This document shows, piece after piece, positions 44,303-59,853 of a DNA stretch of 64,000 nucleotides (position 1 is the stretch's first letter; each line of letters opens with the position of its first letter). The translations under genes and the position numbers were made by a program. Source of the stretch: Pseudomonadales bacterium (lineage in GTDB: Bacteria; Pseudomonadota; Gammaproteobacteria; Pseudomonadales; UBA5518); the NCBI GenBank assembly GCA_022072145.1, contig JAJVIG010000010.1, forward strand, positions 1 through 64,000. Direction: 5' to 3'. The notes beneath the pieces were generated by a model. The model was not told the DNA's origin. It saw only the letters and a list, made by a program, of their open reading frames with translations, and did not search any database.

Positions 44303-44469
44303 TCTCGCGGCAACAGGTCGACGCAGAGTCTAGACCGTCGCGGACCGTCGCGCCGCTCCCCGACACCGGGTGATCCCGATCCGGGGTGGCGCGCGTATCA
44401 TCACCGGCATGTCCCGGTGAGCGCGGACGCGGAGCCGCCAGCGCACCGGGCACGAACCAGGAGACCGCC

Positions 44470-45426
44470 ATGCCGACCACCAGACCGCGCTCCGGCCACA
44501 GTGCCCGCATCGCCTCGTCGGAGCTCACGCCGCAGTCGGTGTGGCTGCGCCGGCGCGAGTTCGTGCTGGCGGGGTTGGCCGCGGGGCTGCTGCCGGGCGT
44601 GCTGCGTGCGGCGCCGGACGGCGCAGGGTTGTCGTACACACGCAATGCGCGCTACGGCGCCGGCGAGACACCGAACAGTTACGAGGACATCACGACGTAC
44701 AACAACTTCTACGAGTTCGGCACCGGCAAGGAGGACCCGGCGCGGCGTGCGGGCAGGTTCCGCCCGGCGCCGTGGAGCCTGCGGATCGAGGGCGAGGCGG
44801 ACCGCACCGGCGTGTTCGCGCTGGAAGACATACTGCGGCCGCATCCGCTCGAGGAGCGGGTCTACCGCCTGCGCTGCGTCGAGGCGTGGTCGATGGTGGT
44901 GCCGTGGGTCGGCTTCCCGCTCGCCGACCTGCTGCGCCGCTTCGCCCCAACCTCGCGCGCGAAGTACGTGGCGTTCACGACGGCGGCGATACCGGAGCAG
45001 ATGCCCGGTCTGGCGTACCGCGTGCTCGACTGGCCGTACGTCGAGGGTCTGCGCATCGACGAGGCGATGCATCCGCTCGCCTTCGTCGCGACCGGACTCT
45101 ACGGCCAGCCGCTGCCGAACCAGAACGGTGCGCCCTTGCGCCTGGTACTGCCGTGGAAGTACGGCTTCAAGAGCATCAAGTCGATCGTGGCGATCCGCTT
45201 CACAGCAACGCAGCCGCCTACCTCGTGGAACCGGGCCGCGCCGCGGGAGTACGGCTTCTACGCCAACGTGAATCCCGCGGTCGACCATCCGCGCTGGAGC
45301 CAGGCGCGCGAGCGGCGCATCGGCGCCGGCGTGTTCGGCGCGCGGCGGCCCACGCTGGCGTTCAACGGCTATGCGGAGGAGGTGGCTTCGCTGTATGCGG
45401 GAATGGACCTGCGCCGCCATTTCTGA
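44470..45426 (+). CDS. msrP: Periplasmic methionine sulfoxide reductase molybdopterin subunit
   Basis: Twin-arginine-type leader [51 protein letters not shown]. Confidence 0.95.
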
Positions 45427-46027
45427 AGGCCGGCACCGCCTGCGCCTGCTGAAGGCGGCCGTTTTCCTTGCCTGCCTCGCACCGCTGGCGGCGCTGTTTG
45501 CGCGCGGACTCGGCGTCGGCGGCGCGACGCTGGGCGCGAACCCGGTCGAGTTCGTGCTGCACGCGCTCGGCAAGTGGGGGCTGAACTTCCTGCTGCTCAC
45601 CCTCGCGGTGTCGCCGTTGCGCGCCATCATCGGGCGTGCGTGGCCGCTCGGGTTCCGCCGGATGCTGGGCCTGTTCGCGTTCTTCTACGCGACACTGCAT
45701 CTGCTGTGCTGGCTGGTGCTCGATCAGGGGCTGTACCTGCAGGGGATCGCCGCCGACATCGCGAAGCGGCCGTTCATCACCATCGGCGTGCTGGCGTACC
45801 TGCTGCTCGTCCCGCTGGCCGTGACCTCCACCGACCGCATGCTGCGCCGGCTCGGCAGGCGCTGGAAGACGCTGCACCGGCTGGTCTACGCGGTCGTGCT
45901 GCTCGGGGTGTGGCACTACTACTGGCTGGTCAAGGCCGATGTGCGCGAGCCGCTGTTCTACCTCGCGATGACGCTGCTGCTGCTCGGCTGGCGGGTGCGC
46001 ACGCGGCTGCGGCGCACCTGTCCGTAG
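45395..46027 (+). CDS. msrQ: Heme-binding membrane partner of MsrP
   Basis: [60 protein letters not shown]; stop TAG at 46025-46027. Confidence 0.92.
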
Positions 46028-46199
46028 GTTCGGCCTGCGGCCGAACATTTGTCCGGGCGCAGCCCGGACCACGTGCGCCGGCGTCCGGTGTTTGGCGCGT
46101 GCGTGGACGTGCCCGGCGTAGGTTCGGCCTGCGGCCGAACAGGTCCCCGTAGGTTCGGCCTGCGGCCGAACATTTGTCCGGGCGCAGCCCGGACCTACG
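46023..46199. repeat. Repeat locus 1: two-hairpin REP/BIME-like elements (units about 46023-46073, 46117-46144, 46148-46199)
   Basis: CGTAGGTTCGGCCTGCGGCCGAAC three times; GTCCGGGCGCAGCCCGGAC twice; both hairpins have perfect 8-bp arms. Confidence 0.92.
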
Positions 46200-46689
46200 A
46201 TTCGAGCGCGCGTTCGATGGCGGCGATGATCGCCTCGGGTGCGGGGGGGCAACCGGACGCCGTGGCGTCTACGGCGATCACGTCGGCGACGCCGCCGCAG
46301 CTCGCATAGCCGGCATCGAAGATGCCGCCGTCGATCGCGCAGTCGCCGACCGCCACCACCCGTTTCGGTGCCGGTGTCGCATCGTGCGTGCGCAGCAAGG
46401 CCTCGCGCATGTGGCGTGACACCGGCCCGCTGACCAGCAGCAGGTCCGCGTGGCGCGGGCTCGCGACGAACTTCATGCCGCTCGCCTCGATGTTGTAGTA
46501 GACGTTGCCGAGCGCGTGGATCTCGAGTTCGCAGCCGTTGCACGACCCGGCGTCGACGTGACGCATGCACGGCGCTCGCCCCACCGCGCGCAGTTCGGGA
46601 TCGGCGGCTGCGTCCCCCGGCGCGGCTTCTGCCTGCCGGCGACCGGCGACGATGCCGACGCGCGCGATCTGCTTCAGGATGTCGAGCAT
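46195..46689 (-). CDS. HyfI/NuoB-like small subunit of an Ehr/Hyf-like complex
   Basis: CMRHVDAGSCNGCELEIHALGNVYYNIE...VAVGDCAIDGG...GCPPAPEAIIAAI retains Fe-S cysteines. Confidence 0.92.
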   Translation of the reverse strand: MLDILKQIARVGIVAGRRQAEAAPGDAAADPELRAVGRAPCMRHVDAGSCNGCELEIHALGNVYYNIEASGMKFVASPRHADLLLVSGPVSRHMREALLRTHDATPAPKRVVAVGDCAIDGGIFDAGYASCGGVADVIAVDATASGCPPAPEAIIAAIERALES

Positions 46690-46696
46690 ACGGGCC

Positions 46697-48196
46697 TCAC
46701 AGGTCCACGCCGCTGTACGAGAGGTTGAACGACTTGTTGATCAGCGGGAAGTCCGGAACGATGTCGCCGATGATCGCGTGTTCCAGCGCCGGCCAGTTGT
46801 GCCACGAGGGGTCGTGTGGGTGGCAGCGCCGGATCGATCCGTCGGTCGCGGTTTCGAGCGCGACGAACACCGGTCCGCGCCAGCCCTCGACGAGTCCGAC
46901 GCCGAAACCGCCCGGAGCGGGCGCCTGCGCTGGTGCGCACACCTCGCCGGGCGGCAGCCGGCGCAGCAGTTCACCGCCGAGGCGCAGCGATTCGGCGAGC
47001 TCGTCGAAGCGCACCGCCACCCGCGCGGCGACGTCGCCGCCCGCGGCGCTCGCGCAACGCACCGCGAGCGCGTCGTACGGCGGCAGCGGCAGATCGACGC
47101 GCAGGTCCCGGGCGATGCCGCTCGCGCGCGCGACCAGGCCGGTCACGCCGAGGCGGCGTGCGAGTTCCCCCGGCACCTTGCCGCAGCCGAGGAAGCGGTC
47201 CTGCATGCCGGCGTGGTCGTCGTAGATCGCGCGCAGCCGCTCCGTTTCCCCGGCCAGCACGCTGAACTGCTGCTGCAGCAGCGCGGCGCCGGCGGGCGTG
47301 AGCTCGATGGCCACGCCGCCGGTGACCACCGCATCCATCGGATAGCGCGCGCCGAAGACCTGCGCGTTCACGCGCAGCAGGTCCTCCTTCAGACGCATGA
47401 ACTGCGCCAGCCCGACGCCGAAACCGGCGTCGTTGCCGAGCGCGCCCAGATCGCCGAGGTGGTTGGCGATGCGCTCGCGCTCGAGCAGCAGCGCACGCAG
47501 GAACGTCGCGCGTGGCGGTACGGACACTCCGCGGATGTGCTCCTCGGCGAGGCAGAATGCCCACGCGAAGGCGACTGCGGAGTCACCCGACACGCGTGCC
47601 GCGAGCCGCCGGGCAGCGGCTGGCGCGAGTTCGGTGAAGCGGCGCTCGATGCCCTTGTGCACGTAGCCCAGACGCTGCTCCAGGCGCAGCACCTTCTCGC
47701 CGACCACCGAGAAGCGGAAATGCCCCGGTTCGATGGTGCCGGCATGCACCGGCCCGACCGCGATCTCGTGCACACCGTCGCCGCGCACGCGAACGAAGCC
47801 GTACGGTGTGGGGTCCGGCGTGCCGCCGCGGAAATCGCGGCGCAGCGGCGCGTCGCCGTCGGACCACGCGCCGTGGCGGATCCACGGCCGCCGGTCGCCG
47901 CCCTCGGCCTGGACGCCCGACAGATCGCGCAGCGCGCGCTGCAGGCGCGCGGCGGCCGGAAACAATTCGTCGATGCGCGGATACGGCGCGGCGCCGTCGG
48001 GCAACGCCAACTCGACGATCACGACGCCGCCCGGCTGCAGGAACGCCGCGCGCAGCAGATCGCCTTCACCGTGGTCGCGCTCGTCGCTGGCCCACAGCGT
48101 CAGCAGGCGCGCGCCGGCGGCGTGCAGCGCCTCGATGCGCGGCAGCCACTGCTCGCGCGTCACAGGCGCGTGTTCGACCGCAAGCGTGGCGTTCAT
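46697..48196 (-). CDS. HyfG/HycE-like large subunit lacking [NiFe] cysteines
   Basis: GPVHAGTIEPGHFRFSVVGEKVLRLEQRLGYVHKGIERRF; no CxxC at RVSGDSAVAFAWAF; C-terminus NKSFNLSYSGVDL has no DPCxxC. Confidence 0.9.
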   Translation of the reverse strand: MNATLAVEHAPVTREQWLPRIEALHAAGARLLTLWASDERDHGEGDLLRAAFLQPGGVVIVELALPDGAAPYPRIDELFPAAARLQRALRDLSGVQAEGGDRRPWIRHGAWSDGDAPLRRDFRGGTPDPTPYGFVRVRGDGVHEIAVGPVHAGTIEPGHFRFSVVGEKVLRLEQRLGYVHKGIERRFTELAPAAARRLAARVSGDSAVAFAWAFCLAEEHIRGVSVPPRATFLRALLLERERIANHLGDLGALGNDAGFGVGLAQFMRLKEDLLRVNAQVFGARYPMDAVVTGGVAIELTPAGAALLQQQFSVLAGETERLRAIYDDHAGMQDRFLGCGKVPGELARRLGVTGLVARASGIARDLRVDLPLPPYDALAVRCASAAGGDVAARVAVRFDELAESLRLGGELLRRLPPGEVCAPAQAPAPGGFGVGLVEGWRGPVFVALETATDGSIRRCHPHDPSWHNWPALEHAIIGDIVPDFPLINKSFNLSYSGVDL

Positions 48197-48201
48197 CGCG
48201 T

Positions 48202-49653
48202 TCACCCGATCATCCGCGCCGCGAGGCGGTACCAGTCGGCCAGGAACGGCGGTATCCACAGCCCCAGCAGCAGCACCAACGCGAGGTGCACGAATACCGG
48301 CAGCAACGAGGGCGGCACCGGCAGCCGCCGGCCGGTGTGCTCGCCGAGCACCATTTCCTGCGTGCGTCCGAACACGGCTGCGAACGCCACGCCGAGCGCG
48401 AGCAGCAACAACGGTGTTGCCCACGGCTGTTCGCGCATGGCGGTGGTGAGAATCAGGAACTCGCTGGCGAACACGCCGAACGGCGGCATGCCGAGGATCG
48501 CCAGCGTGCCGAGCATCAGCCCCCAGCCCAGCGCCGGTGACAGTCCCAGCAGGCCGCGGATGTCGGCCATCTGCTGCGATCCGGTCTTCTGGGTCGCATG
48601 GCCCACCGCGAAGAAGATCGCGCTCTTGGTCAGCGAGTGCACGGTCATGTGCAGCAGCGCGGCGAAGTTCGCGACCGCACCGCCCATGCCGAAGGCGAAG
48701 GTGATGATCCCCATGTGTTCGATCGAGGAGTACGCGAACAGCCGCTTGATGTCCTTCTGTCGCCACAGCATGAACGCCGCGAGCAGCACCGACAGGATGC
48801 CGAAGAACATCAGCATGCGCCCCGGCAGTTCGGGGCCGATCGCCCCCTCGACCAGCACCTTGCAGCGGATCACCGCGTACAGCGCCACGTTCAGCAGCAG
48901 CCCAGACAGCACCGCCGACACCGGGGTCGGGCCCTCGGCGTGCGCGTCGGGCAGCCAGTTGTGCAGCGGCGCGAGCCCCACCTTGGTGCCGTAGCCGACC
49001 AGCAGGAACACGAAGGCGATCGCGAGCACCGTGGGCTCGAGCTGGTCCTTGACGGCATCGAGCCGGGTCCACAACAGCGCGTCGGTGCCGGCGTGCCCGA
49101 GCACGCGCTCGGCGGCGAAGTAGAGCAGGATGGTGCCGAACAGCGCCAGCGCGATGCCGACGCCGCACAGGATGAAGTACTTCCACGCCGCCTCCAGGCT
49201 GGCGGCGCTGCGGTACAGCGAGACCAGCAGCACGGTCGACAGCGTCGCGGCCTCCATCGCCACCCACAGCAACCCCAGGTTGTTGGTCAGCAGCGCGAGC
49301 AGCATGGTGAACATGAACAGCTGGTACATGCCGTGGTAGAGCCGCAGGCGGGCGCGCCCGAGGCGGCCGTGGTGCTCCTCGATGCGCATGTAGCGGCGCG
49401 AGAACAGCGCGGTCGTGAAGTTCACGAAGGCGGTCAGCGTGACCAGGAACACGTTGAACGGGTCGACGAAGAACTGCTCGCTGCAGCAGACCCGCGGCCC
49501 GTCGGCGATCACGCGCACGGTGAGCAGCACCGCGACCGCGAACGTCGCGAGGCTGAAGCCCACGTTCGCCTCGGGTGCCAGGCGATGTGCGCCCGCCAGT
49601 GCGAGCAGCAGTGCGCCCCCGAGCGGCAGCGCGAGCAGGATCAGGATTTCCAT
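48202..49653 (-). CDS. HyfF-like (NuoL/M/MrpD-type) antiporter-like subunit
   Basis: GYGTKVGLAPLHNWLPDAHAEGPTPVSAVLSG; DIKRLFAYSSIEHMGIITFAFG. Confidence 0.93.
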   Translation of the reverse strand: MEILILLALPLGGALLLALAGAHRLAPEANVGFSLATFAVAVLLTVRVIADGPRVCCSEQFFVDPFNVFLVTLTAFVNFTTALFSRRYMRIEEHHGRLGRARLRLYHGMYQLFMFTMLLALLTNNLGLLWVAMEAATLSTVLLVSLYRSAASLEAAWKYFILCGVGIALALFGTILLYFAAERVLGHAGTDALLWTRLDAVKDQLEPTVLAIAFVFLLVGYGTKVGLAPLHNWLPDAHAEGPTPVSAVLSGLLLNVALYAVIRCKVLVEGAIGPELPGRMLMFFGILSVLLAAFMLWRQKDIKRLFAYSSIEHMGIITFAFGMGGAVANFAALLHMTVHSLTKSAIFFAVGHATQKTGSQQMADIRGLLGLSPALGWGLMLGTLAILGMPPFGVFASEFLILTTAMREQPWATPLLLLALGVAFAAVFGRTQEMVLGEHTGRRLPVPPSLLPVFVHLALVLLLGLWIPPFLADWYRLAARMIG

Positions 49654-49660
49654 CGCGGCA

Positions 49661-50326
49661 TCATTCCTCCCTGAGCCTCTCCAGATGGTGCAGGTCGAGG
49701 CTGTCGAACTGCTCGCGGATCTGGAAGAAGAAGATGCCGAGGATCAGCACGCCGACCAGCACGTCGAGCGCGATGCCGAGTTCGACCACCATCGGCATCC
49801 CGTAGGTGGTGCTGGTCGCCGCGAAGAACAGGCCGTTCTCCATCGCCAGGAAGCCGATCACCTGGGTGACCGCCTTGCGGCGCGTGATCATCATCAGGAA
49901 CGCGAGCATCACCACCGCGATCGCGATGCCGAGCGTGCTCTGGGTCACGTGGCCGGCGAGGCGCGACACCGGTTGCGCGAGTCCGAAGGCGAACACCACC
50001 AGCACCAGTCCGATCAGCATCGTGGCGGGGATGTGCAGTCCGGTCTCGGTATCCCAGCGCAGTTGCAAGCGGTCGATCAGGCGGTAGAGGATCAGCGGCA
50101 GCACGATCACCTTCAGCAGCAGCGTCAGCGCGGCGGAGTAGTACAGGTGCGGCTGGTCGCCGGTCCAGGCGACGATCGTCGTCGAGCACACCAGCGCCGC
50201 ACCCTGCAGCGCGAACAGGTCGATCAGCGTGCGGATGCGCCGCTGTGCCAGCATCGCGAACGAGAGCAGCAGCACCACCGAGGCGAACAGGTGGATGTAC
50301 TGGCCCGACAGCGGCATCGTCGGCAT
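49661..50326 (-). CDS. HyfE-like membrane subunit (alternative GTG start at 50335)
   Basis: VTQVIGFLAMENGLFFAATSTTYGMPMVVELGIALDVLVGVLILGIFFFQI. Confidence 0.9.
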   Translation of the reverse strand: MPTMPLSGQYIHLFASVVLLLSFAMLAQRRIRTLIDLFALQGAALVCSTTIVAWTGDQPHLYYSAALTLLLKVIVLPLILYRLIDRLQLRWDTETGLHIPATMLIGLVLVVFAFGLAQPVSRLAGHVTQSTLGIAIAVVMLAFLMMITRRKAVTQVIGFLAMENGLFFAATSTTYGMPMVVELGIALDVLVGVLILGIFFFQIREQFDSLDLHHLERLREE

Positions 50327-50331
50327 CGTGT

Positions 50332-51282
50332 TCACTCCTGCACCAGCAGTCGCACCAGCAGGCCCAGCACGGCCAGCATGAACGCGAACGCGAGGAATTC
50401 GGGGGCGCGGAAGATGCGGATCTTCGCGTTCACGGTCTCGATCAGCGCGAGCGCCGCGCCCGCGAGCAGCAGCTTCGCCGCGAGCACGGCGAGCGCGCCG
50501 GCGAGCACCGGCGGCGACGCCAGGTCGACCGCGACACCCCACGGCAGGAACAGCGCGAAACCCATGCACGCGTAGTTGAACAGCTTCAGCGCCGCCGCCC
50601 ACTCGATCAGCGCGAGATGGCGCGCGGAGTACTCGAGCACCATCGCCTCGTGGATCATCGTCAGTTCGAGATGCGTTGACGGGTTGTCGACCGGGATACG
50701 CGCGTTCTCGGCCAGCAGCACCATCAGGAAGGCGATCGCGGCGAAGGCCAGGCTGGGGTGCACCGCGAGCGTGTGGCTCTGGTGCGTGCCGGCGATCACC
50801 GGCAACTCGGTGGAGCCCGCGATCAGCGAGGCGGTGAAGAACACCATCAGCAGCGCCGGTTCGGCCAGGAAGCCAAGCATCATCTCGCGCCGCGCCCCCA
50901 GCGTTCCGAACGCGGTGCCGGTGTCCATCGCGGCGAGCGCGGCGAACACGCGCGCGGTGGCGAACAGCCCGACCAGCGCGATCGCGTCGGCCGCGCGCGC
51001 GAACGGCAGGTCCAGCCCCAGCGCCGGGATGATCGCCGCGGCGGTCGCCATCGAGCCGAAGATCGCGTATGGCGCGAAGCGGAACAGCGGCGAGACGTCG
51101 TGCGCGAGCACGGCCTCCTTGTGCAGCAGCTTGCCGATGGTGCGGTACGGCTGGGCGAGTGGCGGTGCGCGGCGGTTCTGCAGCCAGGCGCGGCACACGT
51201 TCACCCAGCCGAGGAACAGCGGCGCCGCCGCGACCGCGACGATCACCGCGAACAACTGGGTGAGGACGGCGGCGGCGTTCAC
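50332..51282 (-). CDS. HyfC/HycD (NuoH)-like membrane subunit, GTG start
   Basis: RRAPPLAQPYRTIGKLLHKEAV...ENARIPVDNPSTHLELTMIHEAMVLEYS. Confidence 0.93.
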   Translation of the reverse strand: MNAAAVLTQLFAVIVAVAAAPLFLGWVNVCRAWLQNRRAPPLAQPYRTIGKLLHKEAVLAHDVSPLFRFAPYAIFGSMATAAAIIPALGLDLPFARAADAIALVGLFATARVFAALAAMDTGTAFGTLGARREMMLGFLAEPALLMVFFTASLIAGSTELPVIAGTHQSHTLAVHPSLAFAAIAFLMVLLAENARIPVDNPSTHLELTMIHEAMVLEYSARHLALIEWAAALKLFNYACMGFALFLPWGVAVDLASPPVLAGALAVLAAKLLLAGAALALIETVNAKIRIFRAPEFLAFAFMLAVLGLLVRLLVQE

Positions 51283-53285
51283 AGCACGATCACCAGCAGC
51301 ACGAGGAGGGTCAGGAAGCTGTAGAGCAGGTAGACCGCGATCCGTCCCTGCTGGATGCCCCCGACCAGCCGCGCAGCGCGCGTCACCAGGCGTGCCAGCG
51401 GCAGGTACAGCAGCGACCAGAAGCGGTCCTCGACGGTGACCCGGTACTGCGGCACCGCGTCTAACGGCGAGGGCAGTTCCCTGTGCATGCGGAAGAACGG
51501 CGCGAAGATGTGGCGGATCGGCTGGCCGAAGCCTTCGGCGGTGTCCTGCATGCGTGCGTCCTGGTGCGGGAAGCCGCAATCCCACGGCGGTGCGCGGCGC
51601 ACGCGGCGGCGGTAGACGCGCGTGGCGACCAGCGCGCTGGCGCCGAGCAGCGCCACGATGCCGAGCAGGAACACCAGCGGGCTGTACGAGGCGCGCTCGG
51701 CCGACAGCGGCACCAGCTTCCACACCGAGGAGGCCTGCGGGTGCACGAGCGAGGCGCCGAGCAGTTCGGCCGACACGCCGTCGAGCAGGCCGAGCACCGG
51801 TGCCGGCAGCAGGCCGAGCAGCACGCAGGCCAGCGCGAGCCACAGCAGCCCCAGCCGCTCGAGCCGGCCGCAGTCGTGCGCGTCGGCCAGCGCCGGTTCG
51901 CGCATCTGCCCGAGGAAGATCACGCCGTAGAACTTGACCATCACGTAGGCGGCGAGCGCGGCGGTGAGCGCGAGCAGCGAGGCGCCCAGCGGCACCAGCA
52001 TGTTCATGAACGGGCGCGGCACCTCGGGGGTGAGCAGCAGGGCCTGCAGCAGCAGCCACTCGGACACGAAGCCGTTCAGCGGCGGCAGGCCGGCGATGGC
52101 TAGCGTGCCGACCAGCGCCGTCCACGCCACCCAGGGCATGCGCCGGATCAGGCCGCCCAGGCGCCCGAGGTTGCGTTCGCCGGTGGCGTGCAGCACCGAG
52201 CCGGTCGCCAGGAACAACAGGCTCTTGAACATCGCGTGGTTCAGGCAGTGGTACAGCGTGGCGGCCAGCGCCAGCGCCGCCGGCAGCGGCATCCGCTCGG
52301 CGTGGAACAGCAGCGCGAGCCCGCTGCCCGCGAACACGATGCCCAGGTTCTCGATCGAGGAGTAGGCGAGCAGGCGCTTCATGTCGGTCTGCACCGCGGC
52401 GAAGATCACGCCGAACAGCGCGCTGAACAGTCCGAGCGCGAGCAGCGCGGCTCCCCAGTGCCAGAGCGGGAACGGCAGCAGGTCCAGCGTGACGCGCAGC
52501 AGTCCGTAGGCGGCGGTCTTCAGCATCACGCCGCTCATCAGCGCCGACACCGGCGACGGTGCGGCGGGATGTGCCTCGGGCAGCCAGACGTGCAGCGGCA
52601 CCAGGCCGGCCTTGGCGCCGAAGCCGAGCAGCGCGAGCGCGAAGGCGAGCGTGGCGCGCGTGGCATCGAGGTCGGCGCCGCGCATCGCGTCGAAGGTGAA
52701 CTGCCAGCTGCCGCCCTGCAGAACACCGAAGCAGAGCAGGATCGCGATCGCACCGACGTGCGCGAGCAGCAGGTACAGGAAACCCGCGCCGCGGATGGCG
52801 CCGATGCGGTGCTGGGTCGTGACCAGGAAGTACGAGGCGAGCGCCATCGACTCCCAGGCGACCATGAAGGCGTAGGCGTCGTCGGCGAGCAGCACCATCG
52901 CCATGGTGGCGAGGAACACGTGGTACTGCAGGCACAACAGCCCCGGCGAGGTGCCAGCGCCGGCGCGGAAATAGCCGGCGCCGAACACGCTGATGCCGGT
53001 CGAGGCGCTGCCGAGCAGGAACAGGAAAAAGGCCGCCAGCGGATCCAGACGCAGATGCAGCGGCAGGTCCGGCAGGCCGATCGGCAGGATCCGTGTCGCG
53101 GGCGGCGCCGACAGCGCGGCAAGCCCGACGGCTGTGAGCACGATGCTCCCCAGCGCACCGAGCGGAAACAGCAGCCGCGCGATCAGCGCGGTGGCGTGCG
53201 GGCGCAGCAGGCCGGCCGCGCCGACGGCAAGCCAGCCGGCGACCACGACGAGCGCGGCGTTCAGCAGCACCGCCGGCTCAGCCAT
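51279..53285 (-). CDS. HyfB-like (NuoL/M-type) antiporter-like subunit
   Basis: FGAKAGLVPLHVWLPEAHPAAPSPVSALMSGVMLKTAAYG; KRLLAYSSIENLGIVF; GVIFLG...RRAPPWDCG. Confidence 0.93.
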   Translation of the reverse strand: MAEPAVLLNAALVVVAGWLAVGAAGLLRPHATALIARLLFPLGALGSIVLTAVGLAALSAPPATRILPIGLPDLPLHLRLDPLAAFFLFLLGSASTGISVFGAGYFRAGAGTSPGLLCLQYHVFLATMAMVLLADDAYAFMVAWESMALASYFLVTTQHRIGAIRGAGFLYLLLAHVGAIAILLCFGVLQGGSWQFTFDAMRGADLDATRATLAFALALLGFGAKAGLVPLHVWLPEAHPAAPSPVSALMSGVMLKTAAYGLLRVTLDLLPFPLWHWGAALLALGLFSALFGVIFAAVQTDMKRLLAYSSIENLGIVFAGSGLALLFHAERMPLPAALALAATLYHCLNHAMFKSLLFLATGSVLHATGERNLGRLGGLIRRMPWVAWTALVGTLAIAGLPPLNGFVSEWLLLQALLLTPEVPRPFMNMLVPLGASLLALTAALAAYVMVKFYGVIFLGQMREPALADAHDCGRLERLGLLWLALACVLLGLLPAPVLGLLDGVSAELLGASLVHPQASSVWKLVPLSAERASYSPLVFLLGIVALLGASALVATRVYRRRVRRAPPWDCGFPHQDARMQDTAEGFGQPIRHIFAPFFRMHRELPSPLDAVPQYRVTVEDRFWSLLYLPLARLVTRAARLVGGIQQGRIAVYLLYSFLTLLVLLVIVL

Positions 53286-53374
53286 GCTGGCCGTCGGCGC
53301 CGCGAGACGGGTCGGTGATGCCGTTCGTCATGGGCCGCTCCTGCCCGGCGCGCACTGCGGGTGCGTGCCGGGAC

Positions 53375-53436: not shown

Positions 53437-53670
53437 ATGGCACTGGAAAGCCGCACCGCGCGCCTCACGATCCTGATCGATCCGGGCAAGAAGGCCGTCT
53501 TCGAGCACCTCTGCGCGCGCGAGGACCAGACACCCTCGCAGGTGGTGCGGCGCCTGATCCGTGACTACATCGAGAGCCGGCTGGGGCACCCCTGGCGTCC
53601 GGGCGACACGGTAGAATCCGCGCTGTCGCAGAATCTGACGCGTGAGCCCGTAACCGGCGACGGTGTCTGA
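53437..53670 (+). CDS. Small ribbon-helix-helix (CopG-like) protein
   Basis: 77 aa: RTARLTILIDPGKKAVFEHLCAREDQTPSQVVRRLIRDYIE matches RHH strand-helix-helix layout. Confidence 0.75.
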   Translation: MALESRTARLTILIDPGKKAVFEHLCAREDQTPSQVVRRLIRDYIESRLGHPWRPGDTVESALSQNLTREPVTGDGV

Positions 53671-58248: not shown

Positions 58249-59730
58249 ATGAGCGCAGGCGATAGTTACGAGGTCATCGTGATCGGCAGCGGGCCGGGGG
58301 GCGGTGCCTGCGCCACGCTGCTGCAGAAGCGCGGTATCCGCACGCTGCTGCTGGAGAAGAACGATGTGCTGGGTGGCAAGATGTACAGCGTCGAACGCGA
58401 CGGCTGGGCCTACGACATCTTCCCCCACGGGCAGGTGCCGATGCGCGGCTCGGCCTTCGAGACCGTGTTCGCCGAACTCGGGGTGGCGGATGAGTTCGTG
58501 CGCCCGGTGGAGCCCGACGACCCGCGCGATTTCGCGCACATCACCTACCGCCGGCGCGACCGGCGCGAGCCGCGCGCGGCGAACCAGCGCCAGGCGATGG
58601 CCGATCCGGGGCCGTTCTTCGCGCTGTGGGACATCGACGAGCGCGCGCGCCAGCAGACCGTCGAGTTCATGGCCCACCTGGTCACGCTGCCCGAGGAGGC
58701 GCTCGACGAACTCGACGACCTCAGCATGCACGATTACCTCGCACGCTTCGAGGTGCCGTACGAGCTCTACAGCTACATGGCGTTCCACGCCAACGCCTCG
58801 CTGGCGGAGCCGATCGACCTGGTCGCGGCGTCCGAGCAGATCCGCATCCTCCGGCAGATCTTCCTGCAGGGCGGTGGTGGCCAGTACAAGGGCGGCTTCG
58901 GCTTCCTGACGCGCGTGATGATGCGCGAGTTCGAGCGTAACGGCGGCACCATCCTGCGCCGGCACCGGGTCGAGCGGATCCTGGTCGAGGACGGTGCAGT
59001 GCGCGGCGTCGTGACGCCGCAGGGCAGCTTCCGGGCGCCGATCGTGGTGAGCAGCGCGGGACTGCAGCCGACGGTGCTCAAACTGGTGGGCGAGGGGAAT
59101 TTCGATCGTCGTTACGTGGAGCACGTGCGCTCGCTGGTTCCCGGCTGGGGTTTCACCAGCGTGCGTTATTTCCTCGAGCGGCCGGTGCTCGACGTCGGTA
59201 TCTACACCTGGTACAGCGACGAGTCGTGGTGGAACACCGAGCGCTTCGCGCAGGTCAAGGCGGGCCGGATACCCGACGAGGTCTCGCTGTTCATGGTCAA
59301 CCACGCGTATTTCGATCCCGATGCCGCGCCCGCCGGCAAGCAGGTCCTGGTGGCCGGAACGGTGTGCTCGGGCGATCCCGAAGCCAACGAGATCGAGGCG
59401 CTGTGGGGCCGGATGGACGAACAGATGCAGCGCTATTACCCGCAGGTATGGGCGGCGACCGCACGGCGCGAATACGCCGGCCCGCGCGAGATCAGCGAGT
59501 TCACGCGCGACGGCGTGCTGCCCGGGCAGGGTGGTGAATGCGTGGGACTGGGGCAGATCGTGGGGCAGTGCGGGCGCCACAAACCCGGGGTGCAGGCCCC
59601 GATCGGCGGGCTCTACTACGTGGGGGCCGATGCCGGGGCGGCTGGCATGGGCACGCACCAGGCGGCGCTGTCGGCCATCGAGGTCGTGCGGCTGGTGGAA
59701 CGGGAGCACCGCGCGGCCTGCGTTCCGTAG
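58249..59730 (+). CDS. FAD-dependent NAD(P)-binding oxidoreductase, phytoene-desaturase-like
   Basis: VIVIGSGPGGGACATLLQKRGIRTLLLEKNDVLGGKMYS; C-terminal GLYYVGADAGAAGMGTHQAALSA; stop TAG at 59728-59730. Confidence 0.9.
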   Translation: MSAGDSYEVIVIGSGPGGGACATLLQKRGIRTLLLEKNDVLGGKMYSVERDGWAYDIFPHGQVPMRGSAFETVFAELGVADEFVRPVEPDDPRDFAHITYRRRDRREPRAANQRQAMADPGPFFALWDIDERARQQTVEFMAHLVTLPEEALDELDDLSMHDYLARFEVPYELYSYMAFHANASLAEPIDLVAASEQIRILRQIFLQGGGGQYKGGFGFLTRVMMREFERNGGTILRRHRVERILVEDGAVRGVVTPQGSFRAPIVVSSAGLQPTVLKLVGEGNFDRRYVEHVRSLVPGWGFTSVRYFLERPVLDVGIYTWYSDESWWNTERFAQVKAGRIPDEVSLFMVNHAYFDPDAAPAGKQVLVAGTVCSGDPEANEIEALWGRMDEQMQRYYPQVWAATARREYAGPREISEFTRDGVLPGQGGECVGLGQIVGQCGRHKPGVQAPIGGLYYVGADAGAAGMGTHQAALSAIEVVRLVEREHRAACVP

Positions 59731-59853
59731 GTTCGGCCTGCGGCCGAACATTTCGGATGTCCGGGCACAGCCCGGACCGGGCGATGTCCGCGTAGGTTCG
59801 GCCTGCGGCCGAACGGGTTTGGCACCCATGTCCGGGCACAGCCCGGACCTGCG
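59726..59853. repeat. Repeat locus 2: same two-hairpin family as 46023-46199 (units about 59726-59778 and 59791-59853)
   Basis: CGTAGGTTCGGCCTGCGGCCGAAC twice, GTCCGGGCACAGCCCGGAC twice. Confidence 0.92.

Follow-up and report, generated by a model that had tools for sequence, protein, structure and literature searches.

An intact operon for an energy-converting hydrogenase-related (Ehr) complex with a rebuilt former nickel pocket in a Pseudomonadales genome

Energy-converting hydrogenase-related (Ehr) complexes, for which later authors cite Coppi 2005 and Marreiros 2013, combine large and small subunits like those of group 4 hydrogenases, in which the Ni/Fe ligands are missing, with membrane subunits of the NuoH, HyfE and NuoL types. 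Their gene set is named hyfBCEFGI in Acidithiobacillus ferrooxidans, where HydDB already classes the catalytic subunit as a non-hydrogenase (PMC7735108), hyfBCEFG in A. caldus (PMC3826726) and ehrABCDLS in Methylacidiphilum (PMC6688271). The same set was described in Nitrospira (PMC5596200, PMC10284858), the Rv0081-0087 region of Mycobacterium tuberculosis was called EHR (PMC6728331), and an Ehr complex was reported in Geobacter (PMC7894505). For the hyfBCEFGI cluster of Cupriavidus metallidurans CH34 (Rmet_4666-4671), a role in lithotrophic growth was judged very unlikely by its authors (PMC2864759). Here we describe a six-gene operon of this make-up at positions 46195-53285 of a 64,000-nucleotide stretch (the window) of contig JAJVIG010000010.1 from a Pseudomonadales bacterium. 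The named examples share their subunit composition with this operon, and the C. metallidurans cluster matches it gene for gene, with all six in identical order and 57-69% protein identity; its large subunit carries SGDS and NLSYAGHDL, and no essential difference was found. The operon of the window is an intact, ordinary member of this widespread and already named family, and its product is almost certainly an Ehr complex rather than a hydrogenase.

The HyfG/EhrL-like large subunit (46697-48205, minus strand, 502 aa) consists of a NuoC-like and a NuoD-like domain (PF00329 and PF00346). Alignment to E. coli HycE placed S206, S209, S496 and G499 at the Ni ligands C241, C244, C531 and C534, in agreement with the initial annotation, which had reported a HyfG-like protein without any [NiFe] cysteine and with an end lacking DPCxxC. 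No CxxC remains anywhere in HyfG, and its terminus, NLSYSGVDL, coincides with the C-terminal end of mature HycE. Among 115 Ehr sequences, the first ligand position was occupied by Ser in 100, Cys in 8, Ala in 6 and Val in 1; the second by Ser in 92, Thr in 17, Ala in 5 and Met in 1; the third by Ser in 97, Ala in 11, Asn in 5 and Thr in 1, with one gap; and the fourth by Gly in 113 and Ala in 1, also with one gap. The predicted structure of HyfG (pLDDT 88.7, with the beta1-beta2 loop and the C-terminus uncertain) was closest in fold to HycE (7z0s_E, TM 0.93/0.88). HycE 7z0s_E was also the top match when solved structures were searched by HyfG sequence, and none of the matches was annotated as Ehr.

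Residues of the pocket were mapped via the structure paper on formate hydrogenlyase (FHL; PMC9474812). The proton-gate Glu (HycE E193, here E159) was kept in 114 of the 115 Ehr sequences and the canopy Arg (R478, here R443) in all of them. The canopy Asp D529 of HycE, strictly conserved according to PMC9474812 and Asp in hydrogenases and complex I alike, was replaced by Asn (N494) in 112/115; HycE S283 likewise corresponded to Asn in 112/115. Ile243 of HycE, which lies between the two N-terminal ligands and is Ile in hydrogenases, was Asp (D208) in 115/115, and G526, Gly in hydrogenases, was Lys (K491) in 114/115. The quinone ligands of complex I were also replaced, His by Ile in 114/115 (I158 in the window) and Tyr by Gly in 112/115 (G207). 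About 50 large-subunit positions were invariant across Ehr. R-x-S-G-D-[ST] ... K-S-F-N-x-S-Y-S-G-x-D-L is a candidate signature of the Ehr site, in which the canopy Asp has become Asn and an Asp has been gained between the former Cys positions. Judged by these alignments, the former Ni pocket is a rebuilt site under selection that is neither a hydrogen nor a quinone site.

The family assignment was examined at the level of genomes and of the tree. The HyfG query matched 67 of 398 Pseudomonadota genomes, of which 56 were Ehr-type and 11 genuine Hyf/Hyc-type by identity and signature; Ehr is found in about one in seven of these sampled genomes, besides the report from M. tuberculosis. The gene for HypD was present in 11/11 genuine-Hyf genomes, 24/56 Ehr genomes and 54/331 other genomes. 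In the phylogeny, 41 Ehr large subunits and one distant paralogue clustered together, separate from HycE/HyfG and NuoCD of E. coli (support 100/99), placing the protein of the window with its ligand-less homologues, away from hydrogenases and NuoD. Together with the lost ligands and the operon make-up, the tree confirms the family named in the initial annotation. A contig scan yielded at least 583 stretches and at least 577 relatives; Gallionella, Thiobacillus, Rhodoferax, Paraburkholderia, Methylobacter and Chromatiaceae are among the 80 that were kept, as are some contigs labelled Nitrospirota or Acidobacteria. Two MAG contigs labelled Acidobacteriaceae/Granulicella (L080 and L085) encode Ehr large subunits that share 56-59% identity with that of the window, which may reflect horizontal transfer or misbinning.

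The host draft genome comprises 3.83 Mb in 66 contigs and is 93.6% complete. Neither HypD (PF01924) nor a HycI-type endopeptidase (PF01750) was found in it, HypD being the only product of hypA-F that was searched for; this part of the search suggested in the initial annotation supports a non-hydrogenase role. A separate NuoD gene is present, so a normal complex I is very probably encoded. A complex I duplicate was ruled out as an identity of the Ehr operon by the absent quinone ligands, the tree and the separate NuoD.

The remaining subunits retain the features expected of an ion pump with one iron-sulfur site. The HyfI/EhrS-like small subunit (46195-46689, minus strand, 164 aa, PF01058) has a single [4Fe-4S] site, and its cysteines C50, C53, C117 and C147, already noted in the initial annotation, were all present in the window; across 111 Ehr sequences they were kept in 111, 111, 111 and 110, a single exception among 444 cells. 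The two antiporter-type subunits recognised earlier were confirmed by family scans, with scores above the curated NCBIfam 'hydrogenase 4' cut-offs: HyfB/EhrA-like (51279-53285, minus strand, 668 aa; NF005086, 880 bits, and PF00361) and HyfF-like (48202-49653, minus strand, 483 aa; NF005045, 845 bits). Residues E145, K225, K354 and E409 of HyfB were conserved in 93-94/94 sequences, and E134, K224, K343 and E398 of HyfF in 106-107/107. In the HyfC/NuoH-like membrane anchor (50332-51282, minus strand, 316 aa, PF00146), the E-channel acids E141, E192, D199, E206, E212 and E217 were conserved in 97-98/98, and in the HyfE-like membrane subunit (49661-50326, minus strand, 221 aa; NF008556, E = 1.4e-26) K72, E163 and E182 were conserved in 103-104/104. 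Open reading frames and family scans upheld the predicted six minus-strand genes, which are co-directional in the order HyfB, HyfC, HyfE, HyfF, HyfG and HyfI, neighbouring genes overlapping or being separated by only a few bases. As a small correction, GTG is the most likely start codon of both HyfG (48205) and HyfC (51282). Each of the six genes showed dN/dS of ~0.24-0.37 against a congener (NG86) and no stops; in the same comparison, the membrane subunits evolved more slowly than HyfG and HyfI. The complex is functional on the evidence of the purifying selection, the conserved pump residues and the retained cubane cysteines.

The initial annotation had also stated that no HyfA/HyfH-like ferredoxin gene lies alongside the operon and that its redox partner is not evident from the locus. 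Both statements hold: the motif CxxCxxCxxxC was not found in any reading frame of the window, and no redox subunit is co-encoded. Its description of the operon as a compact version does not, since six genes without ferredoxin are the normal Ehr form. All six were present in 101 of the 121 loci scanned, many of the remaining loci being cut by contig ends, and the published hyfBCEFGI/ehrABCDLS sets have the same content. No double-cluster ferredoxin gene adjoined the unit in 117 Ehr loci, whereas one was present within the operon in 3/3 genuine Hyf controls; three scattered genes with a ferredoxin motif lay 1-5 kb from the unit. On these grounds, and with one distant and weak formate dehydrogenase (FDH) match, a co-encoded electron donor was rejected.

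The best hint to the electron partner is indirect. A second Ehr-like operon in genome G442 (L036 154-5635, G442:C12), ~5 kb from the Ehr operon of that genome, encodes a small subunit with a fused N-terminal 2[4Fe-4S] ferredoxin domain, and its large subunit keeps the GDS signature with loss of the Arg of RxSGDS (SIAGDS). A fused small subunit 66% identical to the G442 protein is encoded in another genus (G503:C127:23234-23983). This paralogue points to a ferredoxin that may exchange electrons with the cubane.

We consider it fairly probable that Ehr is a redox-driven ion pump. The electron carrier would be soluble and of low potential, most likely a ferredoxin encoded elsewhere, and would donate electrons directly to, or accept them from, the one [4Fe-4S] cluster of HyfI. 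Electrons would pass to or from a small substrate in the rebuilt HyfG pocket lined by D208, K491, N494, N248, R443 and E159. Charge and proton movements at the HyfG/HyfC interface could then drive ion translocation via HyfC, HyfE, HyfF and HyfB, with complex I and FHL as the models for this mode. The reverse mode, in which the ion gradient is used to make reduced ferredoxin, is also conceivable. Several points weigh against a redox-driven pump. A literature search gave no activity, substrate or structure for any Ehr. Because the complex I quinone ligands are absent, no acceptor can be named. The paralogue with the fused ferredoxin domain is remote (~37% identity, long branch) and was seen in two genomes only. 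A redox-gated antiporter that performs no turnover would also explain the conserved channels and the conserved cluster.

In nine loci (L061, L086, L099, L111, L131, L132, L136, L137 and L156), the Ehr operon adjoins a gene for a SulP-STAS transporter, which lies upstream and on the same strand in 8/9 and at a distance of 40-253 bp in five of these. These loci occupy at least seven separate tree positions. Given 82 SulP matches over the 150 Mb of genomes that bear Ehr, ~0.5 loci would be expected by chance (P ~1e-6 for 7), an expectation inflated by gene fragments; the link, resting on nine loci, is unlikely to have arisen by chance. More tentatively, Ehr may possess a distinct non-metal active site whose substrate is neither H+ nor quinone, with some lineages working together with a SulP-family anion transporter. 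If true, Ehr and SulP could power uptake of inorganic carbon or sulfate or manage pH. No carbonic anhydrase gene was found near Ehr in the 117 loci.

The SulP adjacency can also be read in favour of a module for ion or pH homeostasis, an Mrp-like antiporter that is possibly redox-gated by the cubane and is not an oxidoreductase. For the Methylacidiphilum Ehr, a role in pH has been proposed (PMC6688271), across the family no gene for a redox partner is found repeatedly, the pump residues are fully conserved, and the membrane subunits are the slower-evolving ones. However, a pure antiporter would need neither invariant cubane cysteines nor the invariant positions of the large subunit; Mrp-type antiporters have no NuoB/NuoD-like redox subunits, and HyfG and HyfI are present and conserved here. 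We regard this explanation as rather unlikely. A formate-linked complex is less likely still. In such a complex, a soluble FDH would dock on HyfI/HyfG and feed electrons as in FHL, to an acceptor other than protons. Geobacter growing on formate contained more of its Ehr subunits (PMC7894505), Margulisbacteria were proposed to have FDH-Ehr (PMC6349859), and for Nitrospira and A. caldus a similar link has been put forward (PMC5596200, PMC3826726). Nevertheless, an FdhF homologue was found near Ehr in 1/117 loci only, 4 kb off and weak, as against beside 2/3 genuine Hyf loci, and HycB/HycF-like subunits, which wire FdhF to the FHL cubane (PMC9474812), are absent from all Ehr loci.

Patchy presence, with the Ehr cluster carried by 2/6 genomes of the genus, might suggest a decaying, functionless remnant of a hydrogenase operon, but this is very improbable given six intact reading frames, family-specific invariant residues across several phyla and purifying selection; a decayed operon was ruled out by the dN/dS values, which lie far below 1 for each of the six. 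A cryptic or standby [NiFe] hydrogenase with Ni held by other residues, to which the homology to HycE/HyfG and the database annotation 'hydrogenase 4' might point, is hardly credible: the four ligands and every CxxC of HyfG are lost, HypD is missing from more than half of the Ehr genomes and HyfG already ends at the mature C-terminus, while ligands, HypD and HycI (the latter two not found in the draft genome) likewise exclude a working hydrogenase.

The operon is flanked by convergent MsrP/MsrQ genes, a divergent RHH_9 gene and a porin gene. MsrPQ (44386-46027) was dismissed as a functional partner, being convergent and not seen as a conserved neighbour in related loci; its adjacency was taken as chance. 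The divergent ribbon-helix-helix (RHH) gene (53437-53670, plus strand, PF19839) is a candidate regulator of the operon, and RHH_9 homologues adjoin the Ehr operon in 19 related loci. The upstream regulator slot holds three unrelated types (RHH, small XRE and XRE-cupin) that differ by Ehr lineage. For the RHH regulator, one 12-nt imperfect arm pair was the only inverted repeat (53344-53372). A palindromic repeat, GTAGGTTCGGCCTGCGGCCGAAC, occurs in five exact copies (0 expected) in two clusters, at 46024-46171 and 59727-59814 of the window; the first cluster occupies the space that separates MsrQ from HyfI. In 18 related loci from several lineages (e.g., L035 16432-17199, L066 12729-13475 and L112 11195-12037), a spermidine-synthase-like protein (PF01564) is encoded next to the Ehr operon, on one side or the other. 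The only SulP gene of the host, together with a CBS-domain gene, adjoins nuoN/nuoM/nuoL outside the window (G000:C12:73299-79985), ~20 kb from the Ehr operon. A different contig carries NuoCD, so a contig end may interrupt the nuo operon.

The copy in the window adds nothing unusual to the Ehr family, and the interest lies in leads at the family level: the pocket residues, the SulP adjacency and the ferredoxin-fused paralogue narrow the tests of Ehr function. The Ehr complexes of Methylacidiphilum, Nitrospira, Geobacter and M. tuberculosis are likened to this one by their published descriptions. E. coli Hyf/Hyc share subunit homology and fold with the complex of the window, which differs in lacking the Ni ligands, the ferredoxin subunits HyfA/HyfH, HyfD and an adjacent FDH, and for which no HycI or HypD gene was found. 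With complex I (NuoCD/B/H/L/M), Ehr has in common the superfamily architecture, the pump and E-channel residues, and D259 as in NuoCD; it differs by the absence of NADH or ferredoxin modules and by Ile/Gly in place of the quinone His/Tyr. The large subunit of Pyrococcus furiosus MBS (6u8y) matched HyfG as a PDB entry only. MBS comprises a ferredoxin-like subunit of its own as well as subunits of the Mrp type. In this group 4 relative, the large subunit is altered and has lost H2 production (also discussed in PMC9474812).

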